From Ruminococcus callidus ATCC 27760 (GTDB taxonomy: Bacteria > Bacillota > Clostridia > Oscillospirales > Ruminococcaceae): DNA of 64,000 bases. Location: assembly GCF_000468015.1 (NCBI RefSeq), contig NZ_KI260389.1:15699-79698 (forward strand), read 5' to 3'. A program made the translations under genes and the position numbers. The notes below the pieces were generated by a model that did no database searches, was not told where the DNA came from, and saw nothing but the letters and a program-made list of their open reading frames with translations. Shown here piece by piece: positions 3,103 to 34,865 of the stretch (its first letter is position 1; every line of letters starts with the position of its first letter).

Positions 3103-3693
3103 TCATTCAATGAACTCTCTAAATTCTGAATTGTACTTATCAATTATGCGTGCTACAGTAGATCGGCATACCTGAAACTTTGTTGAAATCTGTTTCTGTG
3201 TCACCTTGTCTCCGTTTGCAACTGCATAATAATAAACTCTCATGATTTCTCTATCTCGTCTATTTCTAATAGTACGTAGAAACGTATCGATGAGATCCTT
3301 AGTTAATTTCCTGTAGTCATCTGGGTCTGATTCAATCTTTTCAATAAGTGTAATTGAATCAGATGTACCGCCGATTGTCCTATCAAGTGAGTCTACATTT
3401 GATATTAGGTTAATTAGCTTTTCATTGTTCGACAAAAATACTGTTCTTGGTATTCGTATTAAGTTACATTTATCTCTTGCATACTGACGCATATATCCAC
3501 TTATGTAATGTGTAGCATACGTAGAAAACGCAATTCCCTTGGATTCATCATATTGTAGAGCGGCTTTCCAAAGTGCCAGCATTCCTTGCTGCATGATATC
3601 TTCTGTATCTGATATGCTACGGTGCTTTATGTACTTATTATAGCAGAATTTTACGAGATTCTGATTATCTTGAAATAGTTGATTTGGTGTCAT
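3103..3693 (-). CDS. Phage-encoded sigma-70 family RNA polymerase sigma factor
   Basis: At 196 aa it would redirect host RNA polymerase to phage promoters. Region 2 is visible at about residues 28-76: an acidic DTEDIMQQGMLALWKAA helix, then the FSTYA and YARDK segments typical of -10 recognition and core binding. A C-terminal helix-turn-helix at about 160-190 (VTQKQISTKF then STVARIIDKY) fits region 4. No region 1.1 is seen, as in small phage and sporulation sigma factors. The ATG has an AAGGATG ribosome-binding site. The gene reads out toward the tRNA cluster. Recurring TATAACGA-type boxes in the window are candidate target promoters (inference). Confidence 0.85.
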   Translation of the reverse strand: MTPNQLFQDNQNLVKFCYNKYIKHRSISDTEDIMQQGMLALWKAALQYDESKGIAFSTYATHYISGYMRQYARDKCNLIRIPRTVFLSNNEKLINLISNVDSLDRTIGGTSDSITLIEKIESDPDDYRKLTKDLIDTFLRTIRNRRDREIMRVYYYAVANGDKVTQKQISTKFQVCRSTVARIIDKYNSEFREFIE

Positions 3694-23231: not shown

Positions 23232-23600
23232 TCAGTCTGGAACCCATCCGTCATCTAAGTAACATTTGTAATGCTGACTGTAATCGTATCGAATCACAGG
23301 TATTTCATGAATCCCAAATTCCTGACGAATGTATGGAATCCAATCATCTGAAATATCAGGGTTCATGTAAATGATTGCTTTACTTTTATTTGAAATATCA
23401 ACACGCCCTCTTGGGTAGTAGTTGTATGACTTATTGCAACCTCGTGGTTTTATATCATTCCAGAGGCGTTTGTGATTATATGTATTACCAGATTTAGCCA
23501 CACCGATTCCGTCATTCATGAATGGAAATGCTAAGATTTTGTCATCTACAATCCAAAACACACCTCTTGACAGTTCTTTTGACATAGCTGTAATTTTCAT
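23232..23600 (-). CDS. GxFWIxDxxI family protein, paralogue of 23628 gene
   Basis: 122 aa from the ATG after GGTGGTGG. MKITAMSKELSRGVFWIVDDKI, then W..IKPRG and YYPRGRVDI, shared with the next gene. Ends HYKCYLDDGWVPD. A phage family of unknown function. Belongs to the run of genes whose products start with M-K-x-(Y/T)-x. Confidence 0.72.
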   Translation of the reverse strand: MKITAMSKELSRGVFWIVDDKILAFPFMNDGIGVAKSGNTYNHKRLWNDIKPRGCNKSYNYYPRGRVDISNKSKAIIYMNPDISDDWIPYIRQEFGIHEIPVIRYDYSQHYKCYLDDGWVPD

Positions 23601-23627
23601 AGAACCACCACCTTCAATTGACACTTG

Positions 23628-24050
23628 TCATCTACAATTATGACAAGTATAGTGTGTGCCGTCCACAGAGAACTTTCCCTCAAACGAAACCTCACATGAT
23701 TTCAAATATAGTCGAAATTCATCAATAATTGTATCTCGTAAATCTGAATTATTCAAGATACAAGAATCTCCGTAAATCAAACAATCATAGTATTGAAATT
23801 CACCGGAACTGTTCCTTACAGGGTATATCATCACCCGACCTCTTGGGTAAAAATCATAAGGAACTACTTTGTTATTGCACTTGTAATTATGCTTTAGCAT
23901 GTTCCAGATTTCTTTGTGGAGCAGGTCATCCTGCTCCAGTGGATTATAAGAAGTGTTAACTTCGTCGTAAACAGACACAATCTGATTGTCAATAATCCAA
24001 AAGATTCCTGCTTTTGGTGTTTCTACAGAGCATTTAATATATCGTTTCAC
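23628..24050 (-). CDS. GxFWIxDxxI family protein with MKRYIK N-terminus
   Basis: 140 aa, GTG start after GAGGAATAGTATT. MKRYIKCSVETPKAGIFWIIDNQI opening, YDFYPRGRVMI core and a C-terminal HYTCHNCR. Paralogue of 23232. The MKRYIK start matches the putative capsid-targeting N-termini (24055, 24721, 63031) but no Ala-Ser site follows. A perfect GAGCAGG-tcat-CCTGCTC inverted pair lies in the coding region (23919-23936). Confidence 0.72.
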   Translation of the reverse strand: MKRYIKCSVETPKAGIFWIIDNQIVSVYDEVNTSYNPLEQDDLLHKEIWNMLKHNYKCNNKVVPYDFYPRGRVMIYPVRNSSGEFQYYDCLIYGDSCILNNSDLRDTIIDEFRLYLKSCEVSFEGKFSVDGTHYTCHNCR

Positions 24051-24054
24051 AATA

Positions 24055-24708
24055 CTATTCCTCGATATCTACTAGTTCAGGGTATTTGCATTTGAAATCT
24101 CGTGCAGCCATTACTCTTCCGCTAACACTGTAAATTTGACGGCTTTCTGTAGCATGAATATCCGTAGATGATAGTACAAAGTCTTTACCGTATAGATTAG
24201 TAAAGAATTCTTCTGCATCTTTCACTGACGCATTATGAAATTCCATCTCTACATTACCATGCTTGTCATAATACCGTCCAATGATATCGATCGGCTTTCC
24301 TGCATCTGGATGACCATCAGATCTGCGAATTGGATTTGGTTCTGTGACCAGTACAGCATCCTGGTCAAACATACCACACCAGTGAATCGCAAGTTTTATA
24401 AAATCATTTGGAGCGTATCTATTGTTAATAACACAGAATGTCTCCTCTTCGACTCTCACAGCATTGGTGGTCCCGGCATTCTCAATAAATCCGCCTTTTG
24501 CTTTGACATATGTTAGACCAGATGACTTAATTTCTCTTTCTAACTCTTTGTTTCTCTGTCGTTTTTCTTTCAGTGAATATGGATTTCCAGATTCATCAGA
24601 ATCCCGAAACGCTGTAATGAATGCACACAGTTCTCTGTTCATATGGGCTCTTGCACGATTGAAACTAGATGCAAGAATCGATTCAGACGATTTAACATAG
24701 ATCTTCAT
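24055..24708 (-). CDS. DUF3293-like protein with candidate capsid-targeting N-terminus
   Basis: 217 aa. The start MKIYVKSSESILASSF carries the M-K-x-Y-x-K motif and an I-L-A-S site at residues 11-14. The body (ERKSSGLTYVKAKGGFIE-like region, EEETFCVIN, then MFDQDAVLV) resembles DUF3293, a family with a short beta core of unknown function, joined to a C-terminal half of unknown type (GKPIDIIGRYYDKHGNVEMEFH). If the N-terminus is a targeting peptide, this protein travels in the head. Confidence 0.65.
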   Translation of the reverse strand: MKIYVKSSESILASSFNRARAHMNRELCAFITAFRDSDESGNPYSLKEKRQRNKELEREIKSSGLTYVKAKGGFIENAGTTNAVRVEEETFCVINNRYAPNDFIKLAIHWCGMFDQDAVLVTEPNPIRRSDGHPDAGKPIDIIGRYYDKHGNVEMEFHNASVKDAEEFFTNLYGKDFVLSSTDIHATESRQIYSVSGRVMAARDFKCKYPELVDIEE

Positions 24709-24720
24709 ACTATATCTCCT

Positions 24721-25506
24721 TCACATATTACCAATTAGCGTAAACACAAAAATATTTGCATTTCGATTCACTCTATTCAAAACTCTAAGAATTTCATCCA
24801 GGGTAGAACCGGACGTGTTAATGTCATCTACAACAAGAATATTTTGTCCCTGTGCTCTAGCATAACTATCCAGCTGATCTTGAGAAATGAACCCAAGGTA
24901 ATCTTTGATGTACTTTCTGTACTTCGGTTTTACATTTGCTGCTAGTGAAAAATAATCAAGTTCATGAATTGCTGGCAGTAATGTTGTTTCTACATACTTC
25001 TTCATCTGATTGTATTTGTTAGTGTCATATCCATTATCAATTTCAAATGATTCCCAGTCAAATTCAATTTTTGTTGGAATAGATTTCACCAATTGGTAGC
25101 TTGCAGAATGCTTATCATGTGATGTATAAGAATTGATAACAGAAATGATTTTGTTCACTAGCTTACTCCGGTTAGATACTGGGTACACAAGACAATCTAT
25201 GTTATACATTCCAAATTGCTTATCCAGCTCTCCGAGAGGTAATTCTATGAACTGTCTTAATTCATGATCTGCAATTTTAGAATTACCAATCCCCTTAATA
25301 GCATGAATGAAGTCACTTCTCTGTTTTGAAGATGCAGTGTCTTTGAATAGATAACCAAACCAGTAAACACTATTTCTTATAGATGATCTGTATAGCTTTG
25401 GTGGTACAATGTTTATGATATCGTCTGGTAAATCAATTGTAAAGTCAAATGTATATTGTTGATTGTCAGAATCAAATTGGATTCCACTTTTGATATATCT
25501 TTTCAT
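24721..25506 (-). CDS. Phosphoribosyltransferase-like protein with MKRYIK N-terminus
   Basis: 261 aa. The PRPP-binding loop ILVVDDINTSGSTLDEI (about 226-242) matches type I PRTases (hhhhDDxxTTGxT). The N-terminal 200 residues are helical with no purine or pyrimidine substrate motif I recognise, so the base is unknown. A ComF-like uptake role is possible. Starts MKRYIKSG, like other candidate virion-internal proteins. Start with GGAGG. Confidence 0.7.
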   Translation of the reverse strand: MKRYIKSGIQFDSDNQQYTFDFTIDLPDDIINIVPPKLYRSSIRNSVYWFGYLFKDTASSKQRSDFIHAIKGIGNSKIADHELRQFIELPLGELDKQFGMYNIDCLVYPVSNRSKLVNKIISVINSYTSHDKHSASYQLVKSIPTKIEFDWESFEIDNGYDTNKYNQMKKYVETTLLPAIHELDYFSLAANVKPKYRKYIKDYLGFISQDQLDSYARAQGQNILVVDDINTSGSTLDEILRVLNRVNRNANIFVFTLIGNM

Positions 25507-25555
25507 CTTATACCTCCATCTGCATTATACCTTGTGTCAGCAGAAAAGTCAAGCA

Positions 25556-25933
25556 TTACTGGTTCTTTTTTGATTGAATGTATGCCTCAATGTATCTTTC
25601 TACAGTAGCGTGAATATTTCCAGCTTCCAGGGTTCGCTTTGTGGCGTTTGTCAGCCCAGTAATAACCTGCTCAATAGCCATATTCAAAACTTCTTTCTGT
25701 GTTTCAGAATTCCATTTGTTTTGTGCTTTTAGTTCAGTTACAACCGTCTGCTCTAAATAGTCTACACAGGTCCCTGTAGTCTGTGCAAGATCATCGATTC
25801 CAGATTTGATAACTTCACTGTCCGACTTAGATTTCAGCCATCTAGCTAGAGCAGGCAGTACAATCGTAGTGGTTGCAGCTGATACTACAGTAAACGCAAA
25901 TGCTACAAGATATTTAAAAAATTCATCCCACAT
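25556..25933 (-). CDS. Holin, LL-H type
   Basis: 125 aa. One N-terminal membrane segment (FFKYLVAFAFTVVSAATTTIVLPALA, about 5-30) followed by a basic linker (RWLKSKSDS) and a helical cytoplasmic domain with the VDYLEQTVVTELKA element of the LL-H holin family. It would form membrane lesions that release the endolysin (39738-40766). Start with GGAGAGACGAGTT. Confidence 0.75.
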   Translation of the reverse strand: MWDEFFKYLVAFAFTVVSAATTTIVLPALARWLKSKSDSEVIKSGIDDLAQTTGTCVDYLEQTVVTELKAQNKWNSETQKEVLNMAIEQVITGLTNATKRTLEAGNIHATVERYIEAYIQSKKNQ

Positions 25934-25947
25934 AACTCGTCTCTCCT

Positions 25948-26403
25948 TTACGGTTGATAATCAGAAAAATACTGATTCATCAATTCATGTACTAATATAT
26001 TATTATCTTCTGCCGCTTTCTCGATTGTGTCATTGAAATACAGCTTTCCTTGGTTATTGAATCCACAGGCATGATATTCTCGATATAGGATGATAAGTTG
26101 TTTCAGTTTCTCTGAGTAATCAATATCACCATACTCAATATCTTTTTGTATTCCGTGACACAAATCTAATATACTTGTTTGCAGCAAAGTCCGCTCTGCT
26201 GAGGATATGTTAGTAAGCTGATCTCCAAGCTTTTTAACATCACCCTGTGTAGCATCAGCGGACTTTTTTAATGCTGTTACAAGTTGGAGCAGGTCAGTTA
26301 CACGCTTTTTATTGGGATTGATCTTATCCCAATTGTTCAGCAATGCAACTGATACTGCGGATAACAGAGATGCGACAGGAACAATTAAGATTGTCCAATC
26401 CAC
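25948..26403 (-). CDS. Membrane-anchored helical protein, possible second holin or spanin-like
   Basis: 151 aa from a GTG 6-8 nt after GAGGTG (GTG GAT TGG). MDWTILIVPVASLLSAVSVALL is a signal-anchor, followed by a long helix with repeated hydrophobic heptads (about 40-110). It sits directly upstream of the holin gene. Lysis role is inferred from neighbour and topology only. Confidence 0.6.
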   Translation of the reverse strand: MDWTILIVPVASLLSAVSVALLNNWDKINPNKKRVTDLLQLVTALKKSADATQGDVKKLGDQLTNISSAERTLLQTSILDLCHGIQKDIEYGDIDYSEKLKQLIILYREYHACGFNNQGKLYFNDTIEKAAEDNNILVHELMNQYFSDYQP

Positions 26404-26413
26404 GCATCGCACC

Positions 26414-26773
26414 TCATTTTTCAAGTTCTTTGATGATCCACTTTAGGTACTGATCTGTTGGCTTATCACACAGTGGACAGGTACCAGTAATCTTTTCAAT
26501 CTCCTGATCAGTTTCTTCCATGGCAGAAATAAACACACCATGACATGATTCACACTCAGCGATATAGTGATTTGCAATGTTGTTATCCATTTCAATATCG
26601 ACTGGATCTTCATCAACTACTGCATCATCTACAGATTCCTGCATATCGTCTACACTGTCAGATAAATCATCCAGTGAGTCTGATACATTATCATATGTTT
26701 CGTCAGGATCATAATTTGAACTTGTGAATTCATCATCGTCTGCGGCATAAATCCGCATCTTTTTAATTTTCAC
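26414..26773 (-). CDS. Acidic protein with C-terminal zinc finger
   Basis: 119 aa from the second GTG after CGAGGATGA. MKIKKMRIYAADDDE start, a repeated acidic SDSLDDLSDSVDDMQESVDD helix, then CESCHGVF...CPLCDKP. The N-terminus is close to the shared M-K-x-Y motif with an I-Y-A-A site. Possible internal head protein. Ends KWIIKELEK. Confidence 0.6.
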   Translation of the reverse strand: MKIKKMRIYAADDDEFTSSNYDPDETYDNVSDSLDDLSDSVDDMQESVDDAVVDEDPVDIEMDNNIANHYIAECESCHGVFISAMEETDQEIEKITGTCPLCDKPTDQYLKWIIKELEK

Positions 26774-26810
26774 AGGCACTCATCCTCGCATGTCATGATT
26801 AAATGTACCA

Positions 26811-27548
26811 TTACTCATAGTCCTCATCATCGTATTCATCTTCATCTTCGTCAAATGGTTCATCTGATACTTCATCAGTATCCGGATTGTAGTATAGACC
26901 TACATATTCATAGATATGTTCTGGTTCAAACCGGAGCAGGTCATTCAGTTCAGTTTCACCAATGACACCTTCACCACGGGATTCATCATAGAACATTTCA
27001 TCAATGTAATTTTCCAGTTCGTCCAGCTTTCCAAACTTCTCCAGGATTTCCCATGTGTCTTTTGCACCAGACCACGGCTTATATTCACTCAGACCATTCT
27101 GGATCACACTAGCAGCTTCAACGGACTTCTTTCCCTTTGCACGATACTTCTTTGTAGATGCAGATACAGTTTTCTTTTCAATCTTAGTAGCAGATGAAAT
27201 ACTGTCTGGATCTTGTACCAGACCATCATAGTAATCCTTCAGTTCTTCTGCAATGGCGATTCGAGTATTCTTGTTTACCCAAGCAACACTGTTGCCGCCA
27301 TTGCCGAATTCCTTACCATATCGACGAACACCTTCGTCAGCAACATACTGCCAAGCCTTGACTGCCTGAGAGTCATCATATTTACCTGACTTAATCTTAC
27401 GCTGCATGTTCTTGATTGTAGGTACAATCATTTGACGGTAAAGATTTCCGTCGTTTTCGATATACAGTGCAAGCTCGTATACAGTGTCGGGTTCAACTGG
27501 ACCAGACACAGATGCAGTAATAGGACTGTGTTTTACATATCTCAGCAT
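26811..27548 (-). CDS. Candidate processed virion-internal protein
   Basis: 245 aa from the ATG after AAAGGTGATATTAATT. MLRYVKHSPITASVSG start has I-T-A-S at residues 10-13; a second KTVSASTKK site lies near residue 148 and SVEAAS near 160. Each resembles the scaffold cleavage motif. The body is a basic-then-acidic helical protein ending in an extremely acidic tail (DEDEDEYDDEDYE). Not recognised otherwise. Confidence 0.65.
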   Translation of the reverse strand: MLRYVKHSPITASVSGPVEPDTVYELALYIENDGNLYRQMIVPTIKNMQRKIKSGKYDDSQAVKAWQYVADEGVRRYGKEFGNGGNSVAWVNKNTRIAIAEELKDYYDGLVQDPDSISSATKIEKKTVSASTKKYRAKGKKSVEAASVIQNGLSEYKPWSGAKDTWEILEKFGKLDELENYIDEMFYDESRGEGVIGETELNDLLRFEPEHIYEYVGLYYNPDTDEVSDEPFDEDEDEYDDEDYE

Positions 27549-27603
27549 AATTAATATCACCTTTCCTGTTGTACACACAGTGCTTGTGTGTATTAGTCAC
27601 AGG

Positions 27604-27612
27604 TATATAAGG
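27604..27612 (-). promoter_or_regulatory. CCTTATATA box before the 26811 gene
   Basis: The minus strand reads AAACCTTATATACCTG about 55 nt upstream of the start codon, just after the HD gene's stop codon. Same type of box at 42741 (ACCTTATATATG). Possible late or middle promoter -10. Confidence 0.35.
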
Positions 27613-27620
27613 TTTACCAA

Positions 27621-28490
27621 TTAGTACTCTTTAATAGACAGTTGATCAGCAAACTGGAGCATATATACAAGCGGATATTTCTTTACTGCTACATGATATT
27701 CCCCAACTTCACCATCACACATGTTCCATCTGCCCATATGCCACCGAATTGCAAGGGCTTCTTCTAAACTCAGATGGAAAAACTTCTGAGTAATATACAA
27801 GGATGCTGCACCATGCCCAAGAGGAATATTTGCGTCATTGTATGTATATGCACGTTCTTTTTCCCACTGTCCTGTTTCTTCACTCTTGACATTCTTCAGA
27901 TAAGGCTTGTACAATCCAATCTTGCAAAGATCATGTGTCAATGCTACTAATATACAAGATGCAATATTCACAGTTGAAAATGATTCTAACTGGAGCAGGT
28001 CAGTGATATGATAGGCTACATCCAGAGAGTGTTTCAAAAGACCACCTTCGAATGCGTCATGATACTTTGCAGATGCAGGTGCTTGATAAAAATCGGTATT
28101 CCGAATCCATCTTAGGAAACTATCTGCACGCTTTAATCCATACTCTTCACCATACAGCATAATTGCACATCCAGCAATCAATGTGTCATACAAATCTGAT
28201 GCATCATCTAATGTGCTAAAGCTATCAGTGTTAAGACCATGAATCAGCTTATGTGCTCTGTAAACACTGTACTCTGGTCTATCCTGAAACATCTGAAATG
28301 CACCAATGATTTCATTCTTATCATCTGGTGTAGAATCAGCATAGGTATATACAGTAGCATCCGGTTCATAGTACTCACCTACTTCTGTATCAGTAGTAGG
28401 ATCAATGATTCTCCATGTATCCGGCTTGCTATCTGGTAGAAACACAAATCCAATCTGATCCATAGTCCAGAGATTATCCTTGTTAAACAT
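27621..28490 (-). CDS. HD-domain phosphohydrolase-like protein
   Basis: 289 aa from the ATG following GAGGTGATATGT. Metal-binding HD signature: KHSLDVAYH (about 166), LTHDLCKIG (about 195) and WHMGRW (about 258). HD proteins hydrolyse phosphate esters of nucleotides or nucleic acids; the substrate is unknown. The N-terminal part (MFNKDNLWTMDQIGFVF) is not recognised. The leader carries a 9-bp hairpin (28511-28535). Confidence 0.75.
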   Translation of the reverse strand: MFNKDNLWTMDQIGFVFLPDSKPDTWRIIDPTTDTEVGEYYEPDATVYTYADSTPDDKNEIIGAFQMFQDRPEYSVYRAHKLIHGLNTDSFSTLDDASDLYDTLIAGCAIMLYGEEYGLKRADSFLRWIRNTDFYQAPASAKYHDAFEGGLLKHSLDVAYHITDLLQLESFSTVNIASCILVALTHDLCKIGLYKPYLKNVKSEETGQWEKERAYTYNDANIPLGHGAASLYITQKFFHLSLEEALAIRWHMGRWNMCDGEVGEYHVAVKKYPLVYMLQFADQLSIKEY

Positions 28491-28510
28491 ACATATCACC
28501 TCATCAAGTT

Positions 28511-28544
28511 ATTGTGTAGCACTTCCCTACACAATGTATAACGA
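28511..28544 (-). promoter_or_regulatory. TATAACGA box followed by a perfect 9-bp hairpin
   Basis: The minus strand has CACAATCGTTATAC (28537-28544), then ATTGTGTAG/CTACACAAT with a 7-nt loop (28511-28535), then GAGGTG and the HD gene. There is no U-run, so a leader hairpin or operator is more likely than a terminator. Confidence 0.55.
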
Positions 28545-28564
28545 TTGTGCGATATTTGCATAAG

Positions 28565-29254
28565 CTAAATAATTGTACAATAATCGTGAATTTCAGTCCC
28601 AGGCTTTAGCTCCAGGATATCTACACAAGGTTGAGGATTTAGATAGCCTTTAAACAATTCCCATCTTTGTATCGCTTCATGCGGAGATGTCGCATATACG
28701 ATATAAGAGTTGCCTAAATAGATTAGTTTGTATGAATGATATACAGTGTGGCAGACCTTATTTGACTGTCTGTTACGCAATTTTGTTGTTAATGCGTCTT
28801 TGACGGACCATCCAATCCTAATCCGATTTTGATATACAGAGTAATCCATTCCATAATATCTGCACATGTCAGCGGTTGATTTAAATTGATTTCCTAGATG
28901 ATCCTCGCATGGTCTATGGGTTTGTTTCGGAACTGCAAGTGCCTCCTTTTTAGACATACCAGATTCTCTTCTTTTTACATATGTAGTGTAATCCATGTCG
29001 TAATGTTTACACATTGCACTTACGGAAGAAAAGCCATTATCATCTGCGTCAGTAACTCGATTCACATTTTGACACAAGACTACTCTTGATCTGACAGGTT
29101 CTGTAAGAGCCTGCTCTAGTGTTTTACCTCTTTGAATACGCTTTGAAAACGTAACAGGGTTAATCCCATATGCTTCACACATAGAAGTTATAGAATCATA
29201 TGAATTACCAAGATGATCTGTGCATGGCTTCTTCAGCATATCGCCACGTGACAT
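28565..29254 (-). CDS. Protein of three tandem HTH-like repeats
   Basis: 229 aa. Three repeats of about 50 residues each, from residues 10, 64 and 113: DHLGNxFxSxxxMCxxYGxxxxxYxxRxxxGxSxxEAL. The conserved MC-x-x-Y and R-x-x-x-G-x-S positions suggest small helix-turn-helix DNA-binding units, like those attached to phage endonucleases. The C-terminus (YKLIYLGNSYIVYATSPHEAI) is a separate strand-helix module. Binding site unknown. Start with AGAGGAGTG. Confidence 0.7.
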   Translation of the reverse strand: MSRGDMLKKPCTDHLGNSYDSITSMCEAYGINPVTFSKRIQRGKTLEQALTEPVRSRVVLCQNVNRVTDADDNGFSSVSAMCKHYDMDYTTYVKRRESGMSKKEALAVPKQTHRPCEDHLGNQFKSTADMCRYYGMDYSVYQNRIRIGWSVKDALTTKLRNRQSNKVCHTVYHSYKLIYLGNSYIVYATSPHEAIQRWELFKGYLNPQPCVDILELKPGTEIHDYCTII

Positions 29255-29261
29255 AAATCTA

Positions 29262-30179
29262 TCACTCCTCTAAATCTTTAAGAATACTTACAACCTTGTC
29301 CAGAGCGTACTTACCGGCTGTTGTGATTTGTCGCTGCCATGCACTCTGAGAAGGTGCCCACTTGAATCCATTGCTTTTCAGAACAGATCTTACATCAGCA
29401 TCCGGCTTCTCATCAAATAAAATCTGGTACCGCATGGCCTCCGTATTCTCCACAACACGAAATCCATTATACTCAGTTTCAGCAGTTCCCTGCTCTTTCA
29501 CAGATTTTAGGGATTCCAAACGTTCTTCCAATCTATGAATGTTTGCATTGTTGTTCGTGAGTAAGAAACTAGGGTATCCTACTCTACCACAGAAATCTGG
29601 CTCTCTCAGTTGACGGATTGCATCTTCACTGAATCCCATTTCTCTGAGCAGGTCATCGCCATGCTCTGTATCTTTCAATCGAATTGCCTTGTTTGCCGAT
29701 TTCATTCGCTCTTGCAGTTCTTTCAAATCAGCAATTTTGTACTCTAACTTCTCAATTGCCTTTTCGTCATTAGATCGGATTACCTCAGAACCATTTAGCA
29801 TGTGATTCAGCTTATCGATCAATTTCTGAGTGGCAGTATAAAATTCTTGATTTCGATCCCATGCGGCAATTTGTCGTTCTTTCTTCTTTACAGGAAAATT
29901 GCTTCCTCCAGAAATCATAACAGATGGACACATTTTCCCAATACTGATATCTCGATTATAATAGTCAGCCATTTTCTTAGAATAGCGTTCTGCTATGATA
30001 TAAGCTCTTTCAGCGTCATCTGGACGCTTATCAACCACATTATCTGCAATGTCATATGCTGCATCTACAGCAGCATGATATGCGGCAGTAACACTTCCAG
30101 ATTTGTACTCACTGAAAGACATGAGTTCATGGGCTACCCTAGCTCCGTCCTCATTGATTGTAAAGTATTTTCTGTCCAT
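29262..30179 (-). CDS. Mobile-element-type protein (large polyvalent-protein-like)
   Basis: 305 aa. MISGGSNFPVKKKERQIAAWDRNQEFY in the first third and LFDEKPDADVRSVLKSNGFKWAPSQSAWQR at the C-terminus are hallmarks of a family common on conjugative elements and phages, with no assigned reaction. The C-terminal module is a winged-helix-like fold. Central coiled coil about 120-165. Start with GGAGGG. Confidence 0.7.
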   Translation of the reverse strand: MDRKYFTINEDGARVAHELMSFSEYKSGSVTAAYHAAVDAAYDIADNVVDKRPDDAERAYIIAERYSKKMADYYNRDISIGKMCPSVMISGGSNFPVKKKERQIAAWDRNQEFYTATQKLIDKLNHMLNGSEVIRSNDEKAIEKLEYKIADLKELQERMKSANKAIRLKDTEHGDDLLREMGFSEDAIRQLREPDFCGRVGYPSFLLTNNNANIHRLEERLESLKSVKEQGTAETEYNGFRVVENTEAMRYQILFDEKPDADVRSVLKSNGFKWAPSQSAWQRQITTAGKYALDKVVSILKDLEE

Positions 30180-30271
30180 AATAGTTTACCCTCCACTGTT
30201 AATTTACTTAGAATACTTGTCAAATAGCCATCAATATTATCCGTTCATCACCATACGTTTTAATATATCTC

Positions 30272-30700
30272 TTATTCGTCACTTAACAAACGCTCAGCCA
30301 TATATCCATAGTATATACTGTCAAGAACCGTGATGAATCTTACGTATTCTGTTAGATTTTCAATATTTTCAAATACTTCGTAATTCAGCCTAGTCCCTCT
30401 TACAATGTGATTAGCCGAATCATATTCAATATTACTTACACGTCCAATTTTATCAACAAATTTTAGTGCTTTAAATTCTAATTCTGTAATCTCTCTGATG
30501 TGTACATTACCACCTGAAAGAAAATAACGGTTCGGATAGAATGGCGATTTTACTTTTATAGCTCTTGTATGTACACGTCTACCATCACTTGCCTCGATAG
30601 AAAACCAGAAGAAATCTTCAAGCGCATACTTTGATCCAGCTGGATAAATGGAATTAAATATTGCCAACAGGGTGTTATTGTAAGAGAAATCTTCAAGCAT
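30272..30700 (-). CDS. Beta-rich protein of unknown function
   Basis: 142 aa from the ATG after GGAGG. MLEDFSYNNTLLAIFNSIYPAG start, then FWFSIEASDGRRVHTRAIKVKSPFYPNRYFLSG-like strands. Similar in style to several 14-16 kDa accessory proteins here. Not recognised. Confidence 0.65.
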   Translation of the reverse strand: MLEDFSYNNTLLAIFNSIYPAGSKYALEDFFWFSIEASDGRRVHTRAIKVKSPFYPNRYFLSGGNVHIREITELEFKALKFVDKIGRVSNIEYDSANHIVRGTRLNYEVFENIENLTEYVRFITVLDSIYYGYMAERLLSDE

Positions 30701-30774
30701 ACTATACCTCCAAAGAAAATGTACTATAAAGCACTCATAGCTATTGTAGAACATATAATTTTTTAGTTAGGACT

Positions 30775-31239
30775 TTAGTCTTTGCAGCTATCAGCCGCAT
30801 CCTCCACACTCTCAATAACAGCACAATCCGCACGGCAGTATTCACGGACTGGATCTAAAAGAAACTTACCATCTTCAAGAACTTTAAGACAGCACTTAAT
30901 ATGCCGATAATCATTGATATCAAATTGAAGTTTATTTCCAGCACCTAATGTTTTTAAATCTTTAGTTAGCGTATTGGTACTAGATGTGATGTTAACCATA
31001 CCATCATACAGATCTGTGTATCCATTTCGGATAAAAAGACCTAGATCTGCGGAACAAACTCCATTTGCGTACAGCATGTACGCTACAGCATCATCGATCT
31101 CCAACAAGCTGTCAGCTACAGTATCAACAGCTGAACGAAAGAATGGCAACGTGTTTTTTCGATATAAGAATAATTCACCATACCGGGTTGCATATGTACT
31201 TTGCAGTAGAGTGTCTGTGCGAATTTCAGTTTTTTCCAT
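30775..31239 (-). CDS. Protein of unknown function
   Basis: 154 aa from the ATG after GGAGG. Mixed helix and strand; MEKTEIRTDTLLQSTYATRYGELFLYR start. No family recognised. Followed (leftward) by 30272. Confidence 0.65.
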   Translation of the reverse strand: MEKTEIRTDTLLQSTYATRYGELFLYRKNTLPFFRSAVDTVADSLLEIDDAVAYMLYANGVCSADLGLFIRNGYTDLYDGMVNITSSTNTLTKDLKTLGAGNKLQFDINDYRHIKCCLKVLEDGKFLLDPVREYCRADCAVIESVEDAADSCKD

Positions 31240-31329
31240 TGTGTTGTATACCTCCAAATATAAAAGTCTTGACATACTTAAATTGCTAACCTGCTCTAAG
31301 TATAAAGCAAGTTTGTATTATCAATCTGG

Positions 31330-31503
31330 TTATTCAATGCCATATACATCAAAATCACAGTATCTTGTGAAAAATGCGTCAAGTGTGTCATCATAGGTTT
31401 CAAACGTTTCTACGGTTTTGATTTCGCCACTATTGACAGCATCATCCAACGTCATATGCTTATCCTTTGCTGTGTCAGTAAGCGTAAATATTCTGTGCGA
31501 CAT
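31330..31503 (-). CDS. 57-aa acidic protein
   Basis: MSHRIFTLTDTAKDKHMTLD start, GTVETFETYDDTLDAFFTRY-like end. The ATG has a near-consensus GGAGGTG ribosome-binding site. In the same operon as 30775 and 31525. Confidence 0.65.
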   Translation of the reverse strand: MSHRIFTLTDTAKDKHMTLDDAVNSGEIKTVETFETYDDTLDAFFTRYCDFDVYGIE

Positions 31504-31524
31504 AGCTAGATTTCACCTCCAATG

Positions 31525-31758
31525 TTATACTGTAGGACCATACCATGTACGGTATTGATTGCTAGCATTCATAGCAGTTCTCAAAGCATCAACTCTGTTT
31601 TCTGCATCTTCATAATGAGTAAAGCATTCTCTGCCAATCATGTGCTCACCCGAATAGTACTGTACGAACGGAAAGCGTCCTGTTGAATCAATACGAATAT
31701 CTGTCAGCATATCAGAATTTATAATTTGGTTCTTTGGATTTATAAGTGCAATCCACAT
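31525..31758 (-). CDS. Small protein of unknown function
   Basis: 77 aa, MWIALINPKNQIINSDMLTD start and WYGPTV end. AGGAGG before the ATG. Compact alpha-beta pattern; no family recognised. Confidence 0.65.
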   Translation of the reverse strand: MWIALINPKNQIINSDMLTDIRIDSTGRFPFVQYYSGEHMIGRECFTHYEDAENRVDALRTAMNASNQYRTWYGPTV

Positions 31759-31772
31759 AAGCTACCTCCTAT

Positions 31773-31856
31773 CTACTTTGCCATAAATATCGGTTCTAAC
31801 CAATCTCCACTACAAGTATGCAATTGGTAAATTGTTTCTGCATTATAATATTTCAA
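31773..31856 (-). CDS. Possible 27-aa protein with TTG start
   Basis: MKYYNAETIYQLHTCSGDWL start from a TTG 4-7 nt after GGAGGGAG. It fits between two operon genes but is very short. Coding is supported only by the ribosome-binding site and position. Confidence 0.35.
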   Translation of the reverse strand: MKYYNAETIYQLHTCSGDWLEPIFMAK

Positions 31857-31967
31857 TCCACTCCCTCCGAGTGAATGGGGCATCAAGTGTACTGAGCATA
31901 ATGCTTACCAAGTTCGAATGATGATAGGAATGTTGTTTCAAATCATCTCATGGAATCACATCCGGTT

Positions 31968-32411
31968 TTACACATTTAGAATCAAGTTTGCACCTTTAGA
32001 CTTTAGATCCTCACATCTTTTCTTGAAGTCATCCAATGTCGCTTGTGCTCTCAGTCTACGAGAACTACCAATCGGCATGATGCACATTGATTTTGCTAAT
32101 AGCAGAATTGCTTTCTGAAGATTTGTATATTCTACATTGAGCTGATGCTGTTCTAGATCTTCTGGCACTATCTTTTGAGAATCTGCTCTCAGTTTAGGGC
32201 ACATGGCATAATTCCCAAGTGGGAATATAGTTTCTGCATCACATGCATTAGATTCCGATGTATGCACTCTGCACTTTTTGATGGTACTATTGTGTGTACT
32301 CTGAATTGTGATAGTCTTTGCAGTTCTATCTGCCACAACATACTCCCAGATGCAATCTGCGTTGCAGATGCTCGACATCTGATAGGTTTTGCCAACTTCA
32401 AATTGTTTCAT
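31968..32411 (-). CDS. EVGxTYQM-type accessory protein
   Basis: 147 aa. MKQFEVGKTYQMSSICNADCIWEYVVADRTAKTITIQ is a conserved beta-domain opening in Firmicutes phages and mobile elements, related in pattern to 16134. The C-terminal half is a basic helix. GGAGG before the ATG. Function unknown. Confidence 0.7.
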   Translation of the reverse strand: MKQFEVGKTYQMSSICNADCIWEYVVADRTAKTITIQSTHNSTIKKCRVHTSESNACDAETIFPLGNYAMCPKLRADSQKIVPEDLEQHQLNVEYTNLQKAILLLAKSMCIMPIGSSRRLRAQATLDDFKKRCEDLKSKGANLILNV

Positions 32412-32839
32412 ATGTCATACCTCCAATGTGTATCAAACACGCTTAATTCTCGATACACAAATTTCAGAGCAATCTCAATTGCACTAAGTTCTGATTCATC
32501 GTCATATGCTGACCTTTCTTCATCCGACATCTCAAACCAGCTTGCCAGTTCATCTGCCGCTGAGTAATCACAACAAAGTGACAGTATATCTGAAAGAATG
32601 CTTGGAAATCCCTCCATCCAATCAACAAATGCAGGTTCTATACCGCTACGACGAATTTCCTCAAAACCCTTCTCTGAATAGAACACTTGTGTAATTGATG
32701 ATGCAACTGCCGGAAAATCTTCCAAAGTATAGTTCTTATTGGCTTTCATGAACACGCCTGTGTACCCATCTGGAGTATAGTGCTCCAGAATCCACAGACG
32801 GATGTGATCTTTAACTTTTCTACTATTAGCATTCAGCAT
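32408..32839 (-). CDS. SRKVKxHI-type mobile-element protein
   Basis: 143 aa from the ATG after GGAGG, so the longer upstream reading is not used. MLNANSRKVKDHIRLWILEH start and an acidic helical C-terminus with FVDWMEGFPSILSDIL. I know this pattern from proteins on Clostridia mobile elements; function unassigned. Confidence 0.65.
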   Translation of the reverse strand: MLNANSRKVKDHIRLWILEHYTPDGYTGVFMKANKNYTLEDFPAVASSITQVFYSEKGFEEIRRSGIEPAFVDWMEGFPSILSDILSLCCDYSAADELASWFEMSDEERSAYDDESELSAIEIALKFVYRELSVFDTHWRYDI

Positions 32840-32930
32840 AGTAGTATACCTCCATAGATATTCTAGATTTATACTTGTGTAGGATACCGCTTTTTGTTCT
32901 GTGAAGCGGTTCAGAAACACAATATGATGC

Positions 32931-33521
32931 TTATTTTGAACGTAAATGATTTGATTCCAAGTACTCGATTTCGCTTTTGATGGAAACTGGCAAGCCATTT
33001 TGTTTAATCCAAATAAATGCCTCTAGACTATAACCATACCAAATATCGATATATCCATTTTCCATAAACATTAAAAAGGTGCTGGCATCCAAATAACTTT
33101 CAACGTTTGTGATCAGTATATACTGATCATTTAGCTGGTTCAGACAATCTGAGCAATGGAATACAAAACTATTAGAACCTGTATGAACAAAACAACTGTT
33201 TTCTCCGTTAAGATCATAAGCTTTATAAGTCTTTAAAGCGACCTTGTTGTCCATAAAAAACGTAAGTGAAATCTTATGCGTTGCGTAAATTATCGGAGAA
33301 TCGGAATCCGCACCATAAGGATACGCAATTTCTGCATTTCTAAATGAATCATAATCCTTACGAAGCTTGTATGTGATAATATCCTGAGATTCTACATCCT
33401 TAAATGTAATAGTGCATGTGCTCTTAGAAATCGCTTCGTACATTCTTTTGTATGTATGGTAGTATCTATCATACCATACTGCTTCATAGAAGCTACCTAC
33501 ATTAAATTTAATCAAGTTCAT
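32931..33521 (-). CDS. Protein of unknown function
   Basis: 196 aa. MNLIKFNVGSFYEAVWYDRY start, beta-rich centre, Cys-containing middle (FHCSDCLN). Start sits 11 nt after AGGATG. First gene of unknown type leftward from 33548. No family recognised. Confidence 0.6.
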   Translation of the reverse strand: MNLIKFNVGSFYEAVWYDRYYHTYKRMYEAISKSTCTITFKDVESQDIITYKLRKDYDSFRNAEIAYPYGADSDSPIIYATHKISLTFFMDNKVALKTYKAYDLNGENSCFVHTGSNSFVFHCSDCLNQLNDQYILITNVESYLDASTFLMFMENGYIDIWYGYSLEAFIWIKQNGLPVSIKSEIEYLESNHLRSK

Positions 33522-33547: not shown

Positions 33548-33781
33548 TCAGAAGTTCTCCTCGATTCCGTAGTATCCTTCATAGGTGTAACCACAAAGGT
33601 TTGACATAGACCGGAGCAGGTTCTCAAACATATGAAGAACCTCTCGCTCTCCCAGATGTGATCTTCCCATAAGCACATCAACCACATGCGTATTAACAGG
33701 CAGATCTACCTGCTTATCTACGATTTCCATGGTGTTCATATCGAACATTTTGAGTGATACACGAATTGTAGTCATATTCAT
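33548..33781 (-). CDS. First gene of the leftward operon, unknown function
   Basis: 77 aa. MNMTTIRVSLKMFDMNTMEIVD start with a short antiparallel beta pattern, then helix. GGAGG before the ATG. Transcribed from the sigma-A-type promoter at 33914-33942, about 130 nt upstream. Confidence 0.7.
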   Translation of the reverse strand: MNMTTIRVSLKMFDMNTMEIVDKQVDLPVNTHVVDVLMGRSHLGEREVLHMFENLLRSMSNLCGYTYEGYYGIEENF

Positions 33782-33887
33782 AAGTCATTCCTCCAAAATA
33801 GTATTCGTAAACATCAAGCTACGTTCTCACTATCATTCCCTGCTACATATGTTCTCGGTACTGATTCATTGCTACGTTTTAATGTTT

Positions 33888-34048
33888 ACCCATTTGTGTT
33901 TCTTTCCATATTCATTATACACCCGTATGTGTAAATTGTCAAGCGATTTTGATAGAAAAATCACCCAAATGTACAACTGCATATTTGTATAAATTGTACA
34001 AATGGGTATGAAATAAAGAATTGCATTGACACATTAACCCAATCGTGG
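33888..34048. promoter_or_regulatory. Five-copy operator array of a divergent genetic switch
   Basis: The motif ACCCAWWTGTR occurs as ACCCATTTGTG (33888-33898), ACCCGTATGTG (33921-33931), ACCCAAATGTAC (33963-33974), the inverted GTACAAATGGGT (33996-34007) and ACCCAATCGTGG (34037-34048). Copy two fills the spacer of the leftward promoter and copy five the spacer of the rightward promoter, and copies three and four form an inverted pair between them. Repressor binding should control both promoters. The two HTH genes to the right are the obvious binding proteins (inference). Confidence 0.75.
33914..33942 (-). promoter_or_regulatory. Leftward sigma-A-type promoter of the switch
   Basis: The minus strand has TTGACA (33942-33937), exactly 17 bp, then TATAAT (33919-33914). 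Both hexamers are perfect. It faces 33548 and the long leftward gene run, and it overlaps an operator copy. Confidence 0.9.
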
Positions 34049-34054
34049 TATAAT
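34026..34054 (+). promoter_or_regulatory. Rightward sigma-A-type promoter of the switch
   Basis: The plus strand has TTGACA (34026-34031), exactly 17 bp, then TATAAT (34049-34054). Both hexamers are perfect. It lies 23 nt upstream of the chosen start of the first repressor gene, and the last operator copy fills its spacer, so the repressor probably autoregulates. Confidence 0.92.
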
Positions 34055-34076
34055 ACATAGTAGGATGGTGATTTTC

Positions 34077-34427
34077 ATGGAACTAAAAGATCAACTAATC
34101 AAAATACGACTGTCGAATAATATGAGCAAAAAGGATGTTTCCATCGGAGCAGGTATCCCGTATACTACGTACATCAAGTATGAATATGGAGAGCGTGAGT
34201 TAGGTCTAAATGCACTTCAAAAGCTAGCAGACTTTTATGGTATGACTACAGATGATATACTTGGTAGAACTAATACATCTAGAGAATCTGCTAAATCTAC
34301 TGACTATGATTTAAATCCTCTGGAGCAGGTCCTGCTGAAGAAGTATGTGCAATTATCTGAAGATCATAGAGATGCTGTATTAGAACTAATCACAGATGCC
34401 GTACATAGCATTGACAAGCAACAATAA
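34077..34427 (+). CDS. Cro/CI-type HTH repressor 1
   Basis: 116 aa from the ATG after GGATGGTGA. XRE helix-turn-helix at about 8-62 (IKIRLSNNMSKKDVSIGAGIPYTTYIKYEYGER, then LQKLADFYGMTTDDILG). The C-terminal 45 residues (LNPLEQVLLKKYVQLSEDHRDAVLELI) are the dimerising helix pair of small phage repressors; no peptidase domain is present, so it is not LexA-cleaved. Contains two GAGCAGG copies (34147 and 34323). Confidence 0.88.
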   Translation: MELKDQLIKIRLSNNMSKKDVSIGAGIPYTTYIKYEYGERELGLNALQKLADFYGMTTDDILGRTNTSRESAKSTDYDLNPLEQVLLKKYVQLSEDHRDAVLELITDAVHSIDKQQ

Positions 34428-34473: not shown

Positions 34474-34812
34474 ATGTCGTTCACAAGTAAGATTCGAGAT
34501 CTCAGAAAAGCAAGAGGAATTACGCAACAGCAAGCTGCAGAACTGTTTGGAGTATCATGGAGTGCATACCAGAAATATGAAAGAGAAAATAACAGTGTTA
34601 TGCCATCACTAGGTGTCATTATAAAAATGGCAAATGAATTTCATGTGTCACTAGACTATTTGCTTGGTCTATCTGAATGCAAAACCCATGATGACACTGC
34701 GAATACAATAAAAATGCTATATGAGAAATTACTTTCTGGCTTATCTAGCATTCCGGAACCTGAAAAGTTGGATAAGCTGAAAGCAATGTGTGATTTGCTG
34801 GATTCTAAATAA
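34474..34812 (+). CDS. Cro/CI-type HTH repressor 2
   Basis: 112 aa. XRE fold at 5-68 (KIRDLRKARGITQQQAAELFGVSWSAYQKYERENN, LDYLLGLSECK), then a helical tail. Follows repressor 1 by 46 nt in the same direction. A TATAACGATTGG box (34444) lies between them. Likely co-transcribed from the 34026 promoter and ends at the terminator at 34814-34865. Confidence 0.88.
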   Translation: MSFTSKIRDLRKARGITQQQAAELFGVSWSAYQKYERENNSVMPSLGVIIKMANEFHVSLDYLLGLSECKTHDDTANTIKMLYEKLLSGLSSIPEPEKLDKLKAMCDLLDSK

Positions 34813-34813
34813 C

Positions 34814-34865
34814 AAAAAAAATAGCCTGCTCCGAGTTGTCAATCTCAAAGCAGGCTATTTCTTTG
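34814..34865. terminator. Bidirectional intrinsic terminator
   Basis: AAATAGCCTGCT (34819-34830) pairs with AGCAGGCTATTT (34849-34860), with a T-run to the right and an A-run to the left, so it ends the two rightward repressor genes and the leftward 34884 gene. A GAGCAGG copy (34825-34831) is part of the stem. Confidence 0.85.

Follow-up and report, generated by a model that had tools for sequence, protein, structure and literature searches.

A probable prophage repressor switch with five candidate operators over divergent promoters in Ruminococcus callidus

Introduction

What is controlled by two consensus promoters that face away from each other amid repeated copies of one short word, and does the large phage that carries them live as a prophage? 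The question arises at positions 33888-34054 of a 64,000-nucleotide stretch of the Ruminococcus callidus ATCC 27760 genome (hereafter the window), which corresponds to C105:15699-79698, contig C105 measuring 144,696 bp in an assembly of 226 contigs. An initial annotation, made from the sequence alone, described the locus as a lambdoid lytic/lysogenic switch on a large myophage, with a temperate life or a plasmid-like prophage state. Here we define the promoters, candidate operators and genes of this locus (module A), document the integrated state of the phage, describe two sister modules in the same prophage, and weigh a repressor switch against other readings of the site.

Results

Divergent promoters and a five-site array

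The promoters and candidate operators are as follows.

33942-33914, minus strand: promoter P_L, TTGACA-17-TATAAT, 12/12 consensus bases
34026-34054, plus strand: promoter P_R, TTGACA-17-TATAAT, 12/12 consensus bases, with an extended -10 (TG)
33888-33898, plus strand: candidate operator O1, exact ACCCAWWTGTR, just downstream of the P_L start
33921-33931, plus strand: candidate operator O2, one mismatch, within the P_L spacer
33963-33973, plus strand: candidate operator O3, exact, between P_L and P_R
33997-34007, minus strand: candidate operator O4, exact, inverted relative to O3
34037-34047, plus strand: candidate operator O5, one mismatch, within the P_R spacer

Both promoters are thus perfect and diverge with 17-bp spacers, as the initial annotation held, and its placement of one word in each spacer and an inverted pair between the promoters was borne out. 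Its count of five ACCCAWWTGTR copies stands for a family of related words, but only three are exact and each spacer copy carries one mismatch, O5 being the poorest match of the set. In 300 Markov-1 sequences of 64 kb, perfect TTGACA-17-TATAAT promoters occurred at a mean of 0.17 per sequence, and two or more were present in 5 of the 300.

All three exact matches to ACCCAWWTGTR in the window fall within this array, and of the 12 matches with at most one mismatch, five lie within 160 bp. The word is not enriched genome-wide (nine exact matches against nine for the reversed control), so that its clustering, not its abundance, constitutes the signal. When the intergenic region 33782-34076 was searched de novo for a five-site motif, the result was precisely O1 to O5, with a log-likelihood ratio (LLR) of 84.7 compared with 71.4 +/- 2.7 for shuffled sequences, none of 200 shuffles scoring as high; among 195 further 295-bp pieces of real window sequence, two scored as high. 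This information-weighted search separated the region from shuffles, whereas a plain mismatch count did not (six copies at two mismatches or fewer, with six or more in 38 of 500 shuffles).

Genes on either side of the array

The genes and boundaries of the locus are listed below.

34077-34427, plus strand: HTH1, 116 aa, probable operator-binding repressor (HTH_3, 1.3e-8)
34474-34812, plus strand: HTH2, 112 aa, second regulator, probably on the same transcript as HTH1 (HTH_3, 2.5e-14)
34816-34863: terminator hairpin with a 20-pair stem, separating HTH2 from the facing genes on the RecU side
33548-33781, minus strand: first gene of the leftward unit, a 77-aa orphan lacking a Pfam or PHROGs match
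23232-33521, minus strand: remainder of the leftward unit, co-directional ORFs
25552-25524, minus strand: internal promoter of the leftward unit, 11/12 consensus bases
23206-23174, minus strand: strong terminator closing the leftward unit, 14-pair stem and T run

The two CI/Cro-like genes of the initial annotation are accordingly both HTH_3 proteins read rightward, and its long leftward operon is a unit of about 10.7 kb that extends to the strong terminator. For HTH1 the start at 34077 was preferred over 34065 on the basis of its ribosome site, and the hairpin beyond HTH2 presumably serves transcription from both directions. The leftward unit includes an HD protein (27621-28499) and an HNH protein (28565-29254) among genes that otherwise have no known role, several of which are kept in relatives of the phage. 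Given the internal promoter, its distal genes need not depend on P_L; and, with the unit closing after some 10.7 kb, P_L does not directly control the replication and structural genes. A phage sigma factor is encoded elsewhere in the window (3103-3693, minus strand; Sigma70_r2, 8.2e-12), and a sigma-factor cascade driven directly from P_L was considered and dropped, since two strong terminators intervene.

An AlphaFold model of HTH1, built on a five-sequence alignment (pLDDT 80.4, pTM 0.52), predicts a five-helix HTH domain followed by two C-terminal helices, the modelled DNA-binding part resembling DdrO, ImmR, SinR, P22 c2 and TP901-1 CI. Among solved sequences the nearest to HTH2 is ImmR of ICEBs1 (2.7e-6).

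The label "lambdoid" did not survive this inventory and was rejected on gene layout and domain content. Rather than CI-like and Cro-like genes on opposite sides, HTH1 and HTH2 both lie on the plus strand, and the first divergent gene has neither a family match nor an HTH domain; five operators take the place of a three-part lambda-type operator; and no peptidase Pfam model, as expected of a LexA-type autopeptidase, matches HTH1 or HTH2. The more general part of the claim, a repressor switch, is still the best reading of the site as judged from its sequence.

An integrated prophage in a spore protein gene

Integrated in the host chromosome, the prophage measures at least 142 kb and comprises C105:11902-144696 together with C13:15887-25560. 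Host DNA occupies the first 11.9 kb of C105, with a GC content of 0.45 that falls to 0.36 thereafter. At this boundary (attL) a gene for a small acid-soluble spore protein (SASP; PF00269) stops matching at L009:11902. The gene is present in 14 of 15 congeners, and all 14 alignments stop at the attL base or the next one; in the 11 congener loci read, it continues to an end like ATGATCGACGC...CAGTAA. A single copy of the end that is missing at attL is present in the assembly, at C13:15863-15887, where it forms one reading frame with a serine recombinase of 563 aa that has Resolvase and Recombinase domains (attR) and where GC drops from 0.477 to 0.363. The sequence AAAAAGAT is common to attL and attR, which together split a single SASP gene. 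At attL (L009:11748-11993) the host SASP acquires a phage-coded C-terminal tail, and at attR (L070:15863-17554) the serine integrase terminates in the host sequence KKMIDAYKMQ.

With both host-phage junctions and an integrase in hand, the temperate life proposed at the outset is upheld and a plasmid-like state becomes needless. The suggested search for an integrase succeeded on C13; searches for integrase families on C105 came back empty because the gene lies on the other contig. The order of the two contigs is backed by the relative G430, in which one C13 gene matches 131674-131904 and the last C105 genes match 132827 and 133482, the other C13 genes being unmatched there. A scaffold gap of 100 N at C105:15599-15698, immediately left of the window, falls inside a tRNA-rich stretch; the join across it is unsequenced and plausible, because the flanking sequences repeat each other over more than 20 bases.

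The description as a large myophage likewise holds: the prophage encodes a tail sheath (phrog_23, 2.2e-10), which marks a contractile tail, and a Gp23-type capsid, as well as a portal and a DNA polymerase.

Four relatives lack the cassette at this place

Alignment of the large terminase subunit (TerL) identified seven viral contigs and one genome contig. Four relatives (G430, G429, G433 and G431) span the interval from RecU to the HD gene, and in these the main ORFs are co-directional, with a few short, overlapping ORFs on the opposite strand. The cassette is absent from this place in all four, in which neither an exact module A word nor an HTH_3 match was found. Eight sequences were searched for divergent promoter pairs with at least 22 of 24 consensus bases, and none had one; G164:C25, included in this set, is not a relative of the phage. 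Local profiles that recovered the C13 integrase as a positive control (9e-90) detected no serine integrase in the relatives, several of which are fragments; G433 contained one weak tyrosine-recombinase fragment.

Searches of the viral contigs with HTH1 and HTH2 gave no useful matches, HTH1 weakly matched four phage records, and across 394 genomes of the order HTH1 at E 1e-14 retrieved only the prophage itself. Two candidate counterparts in G164 were rejected, C92 as unrelated and C25 as belonging to another element, whose HTH1 homologue is weaker.

Two sister modules in the same prophage

Three further XRE-type regulators (HTH3, HTH4 and HTH5) and an anti-repressor gene are located at C105:127-135 kb, the regulators within 127-131 kb. 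Upstream regions of two of these regulators contain arrays resembling that of module A: module B (HTH3; L012:11241-11470) has five AGGACGATAYGT-type words and module C (HTH4; L012:11847-12119) five GAACAAWTGTKC-type words, none of 60 shuffles scoring as high in either case. Both place one site in the spacer of the regulator promoter, one in that of the opposite promoter, two between the promoters and the last immediately downstream of the opposite one. Site centres, assigned by hand with zero at the midpoint of the two -35 edges and the regulator placed to the right, are as follows.

Module A: -91.5, -58.5, -16.5, +18.5, +57.5
Module B: -93, -63, -19, +13, +62
Module C: -85.5, -53.5, -20.5, +12.5, +54.5

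HTH1 is 36% identical to HTH4 and 33% identical to HTH3. Five-site arrays of 12-base words did not exceed shuffles upstream of HTH5 (region D, 4/60 shuffles reaching the observed score), of the gene following the C105:12928 promoter (region E, 25/60) or of the integrase (9/60). The apparent targets of modules B and C are small, a 17-aa ORF and a 116-aa ORF, respectively. The target promoter of module B reads first into the 17-aa ORF and beyond it into HTH4 in antisense (L012:11382-11521), which may couple B to C. HTH5 and a 170-aa ORF that follows it lie at L012:8103-9110; this ORF has no Pfam match and resembles a degenerate ImmA without HExxH. A Mrr-type restriction endonuclease gene (L012:12471-13349; Mrr_cat, 6.8e-26) adjoins module C.

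Matching spacer words at other loci

At E 1e-8, 237 of 396 family genomes contain relatives of HTH4. Divergent promoter pairs matching 21 or more of 24 consensus bases, collected from 70 HTH sources, numbered 19, or 18 after removal of one duplicate. In a test of the 15 independent loci left once modules A, B and C were excluded, 12-base words common to the two spacers of one locus gave a mean of 8.53 matches, compared with 6.99 for spacers paired across loci; nine or more of 12 matched in 6 of 15 same-locus pairs and in 7.1% of cross pairs, and none of 20,000 permutations was as high. As only loci with such a promoter pair were scored, these values describe spacer pairing and not the frequency of the layout among all XRE genes. 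A shared motif with z > 3 was found in 8 of the 34 loci run, including module C. An automated count of sites per locus was noisy, being forced to five sites and yielding sets for A and C that differed from those of the module search, and is not used as evidence.

The closest relative of HTH1 found, at locus L159 of genome G238, is 43% identical overall and identical in the segment GIPYTTYIKYE. Its divergent promoters are both 12/12, with ACCCACATGGGT and ACACATTTGTGT in or at the spacers, and the module A matrix ranks its upstream region first of 35 with A excluded (46.2, compared with 13.1 +/- 9.2 for the others, the best of which scored 38.2). The first three site distances are near those of module A; the fourth site is displaced.

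Discussion

A repressor switch and the readings that compete with it

We consider it somewhat probable that module A is a prophage repressor switch in which HTH1 binds the five sites and represses both P_R and the leftward early unit. In its favour count the five-site motif, the sites in both spacers of 12/12 promoters, the repeated topology in modules B and C, the spacer words shared at other loci, the matching operators at L159, the integrated state, the Ant gene and the absence of the cassette from this place in the four relatives. Against it count the other XRE-type regulators and the anti-repressor at C105:127-135 kb, the short reach of P_L with a promoter inside its unit, the weak match of O5 and the displaced fourth site at L159. 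Modules B and C each have a single HTH gene, which makes HTH1 a likelier binder than HTH2, although HTH2 could be the binder or a partner. HTH1 would act as a short repressor of Cro/CI fold without a protease domain, on five related sites at intervals of roughly 3 to 4 helical turns. Binding would start at the stronger words O1, O3 and O4, after which O2 and O5 would be filled cooperatively and RNA polymerase blocked at P_L and P_R, because these spacer sites overlap the polymerase footprint. The outcome would be negative autoregulation together with a silenced leftward early unit. Repression would be lifted by an antirepressor or by dilution rather than by RecA-driven cleavage, SOS cleavage being unlikely because neither HTH protein shows a protease domain; the Ant/BRO-N anti-repressor encoded at L012:15768-16205 (phrog_130, 3.9e-56) is a candidate inducer. 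Binding, cooperativity, the direction of control, the role of HTH2 and the inducer are parts of the scheme that we infer.

Module A may or may not be the master lysogeny switch. The master repressor may lie at C105:127-135 kb, since three XRE-type regulators and an anti-repressor are found there, and module A would then be self-contained, regulating itself and the leftward unit, with lysogeny governed by HTH5 and its suspected degenerate ImmA-like partner, HTH3, HTH4 and Ant. The similar construction of B and C and the limited, roughly 10.7-kb reach of P_L are consistent with this reading, which we hold to be unlikely though substantial: module A occupies a place that is co-directional in all four relatives and faces genes kept in them, and the targets of B and C look small.

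It is quite improbable that HTH1 acts as an activator, turning on the divergent 77-aa gene, whose product would inactivate a separate phage repressor. Modules with a divergent small gene and recognition-helix-based specificity are described in the literature (PMC10432266), and the first divergent gene here is a 77-aa orphan. The candidate sites, however, lie inside the spacers of the two promoters, a position from which a bound protein would be expected to obstruct polymerase. Moreover, promoters of full consensus require no activator. A chance cluster of AT-rich words beside ordinary promoters is scarcely credible: the lack of genome-wide enrichment and the two equally high pieces of the window are outweighed by the shuffles of the module A region, the recurrence of its topology in B and C, and the spacer test at 15 other loci.

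Returning to the repressor switch, a wider picture, which as a whole we regard as rather unlikely, would have one prophage carry three related, mutually orthogonal five-operator cassettes. The cassette would be a mobile unit set into the co-directional early region of a virulent-looking myophage lineage of 136-214 kb, which it would have converted to lysogeny together with a serine integrase. Modules B and C might be wired in series, given the antisense orientation of the B target promoter towards HTH4.

Known systems and implications

At the sequence level, module A resembles the ImmR type, in which a short XRE repressor has several sites over two divergent promoters; its layout is closer to ImmR than to lambda. 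ImmR of ICEBs1 in Bacillus subtilis is described as having six such sites (PMC8960796). The likeness extends to the proteins, HTH2 being nearest to ImmR and the predicted HTH1 model aligning to it. Module A differs from ICEBs1 in its order of HTH1 then HTH2, with no ImmA-type metallopeptidase gene beside the repressor, in having five sites and perfect promoters, and in belonging to a phage rather than a conjugative element.

Back-to-back promoters are shared with the CI/MOR switch of lactococcal phage TP901-1, whose CI is described as incapable of lambda-type autocleavage (PMC8516035); switches of this type are reported to conserve operator layout among phages while operator sequence varies (PMC7250872). 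TP901-1, however, has three CI operators, one of them in distal mor, and a divergent MOR, whereas module A has five sites over 160 bp and no divergent HTH gene of the small MOR type. From Lactobacillus phage mv4 module A differs in having five operators, with both spacers occupied; the mv4 rep/tec operators are reportedly single and independent. Like O2 and O5, a rep operator of mv4 falls within the spacer that separates the -35 and -10 elements of its phage promoter (PMC10848424). The Rco conjugation switch of pLS20, described as having divergent promoters, multi-site operators and cooperative repression (PMC4207663), shares the first two of these with module A and would share the third. Unlike module A, its promoters overlap, its two operators lie 75 bp apart with a loop, and the regulator promoter is activated at low dose.

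As a large prophage in a sporulation-linked gene, the element recalls the SPbeta-type prophages, reported to measure 128-140 kb, to reside in spsM or kamA and to be excised by a recombinase with reconstitution of the gene during sporulation (PMC8270828). The comparison is one of features, not of sequence, and the present element differs in its insertion in the 3' end of an SASP gene and its myophage-type tail. A literature search, with most subscription papers outside its scope, found no match for a prophage in an SASP gene, a five-operator prophage switch or several paralogous repressors in one prophage.

The locus offers a compact, testable example of prophage maintenance in a large myophage, with a regulatory layout that is constant while regulators and operator words differ. 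Recognition segments paired with operator words, collected across many loci, could read out a specificity code for short XRE repressors, and the same pairs could supply orthogonal repressor/promoter combinations.

Other features of the prophage

Thirteen tRNA genes are clustered at the left end of the prophage (L009:14589-18723), and a further 12/12 promoter with an extended -10 lies near attL at C105:12928 on the minus strand. The large terminase gene (L010:18020-19977 with L011:535-1470) is apparently broken by an intein/HNH insertion that is absent in the G164 relative. A C5 methylase frame also contains an intein-like insertion (L070:17960-19978 with L071:3-641).
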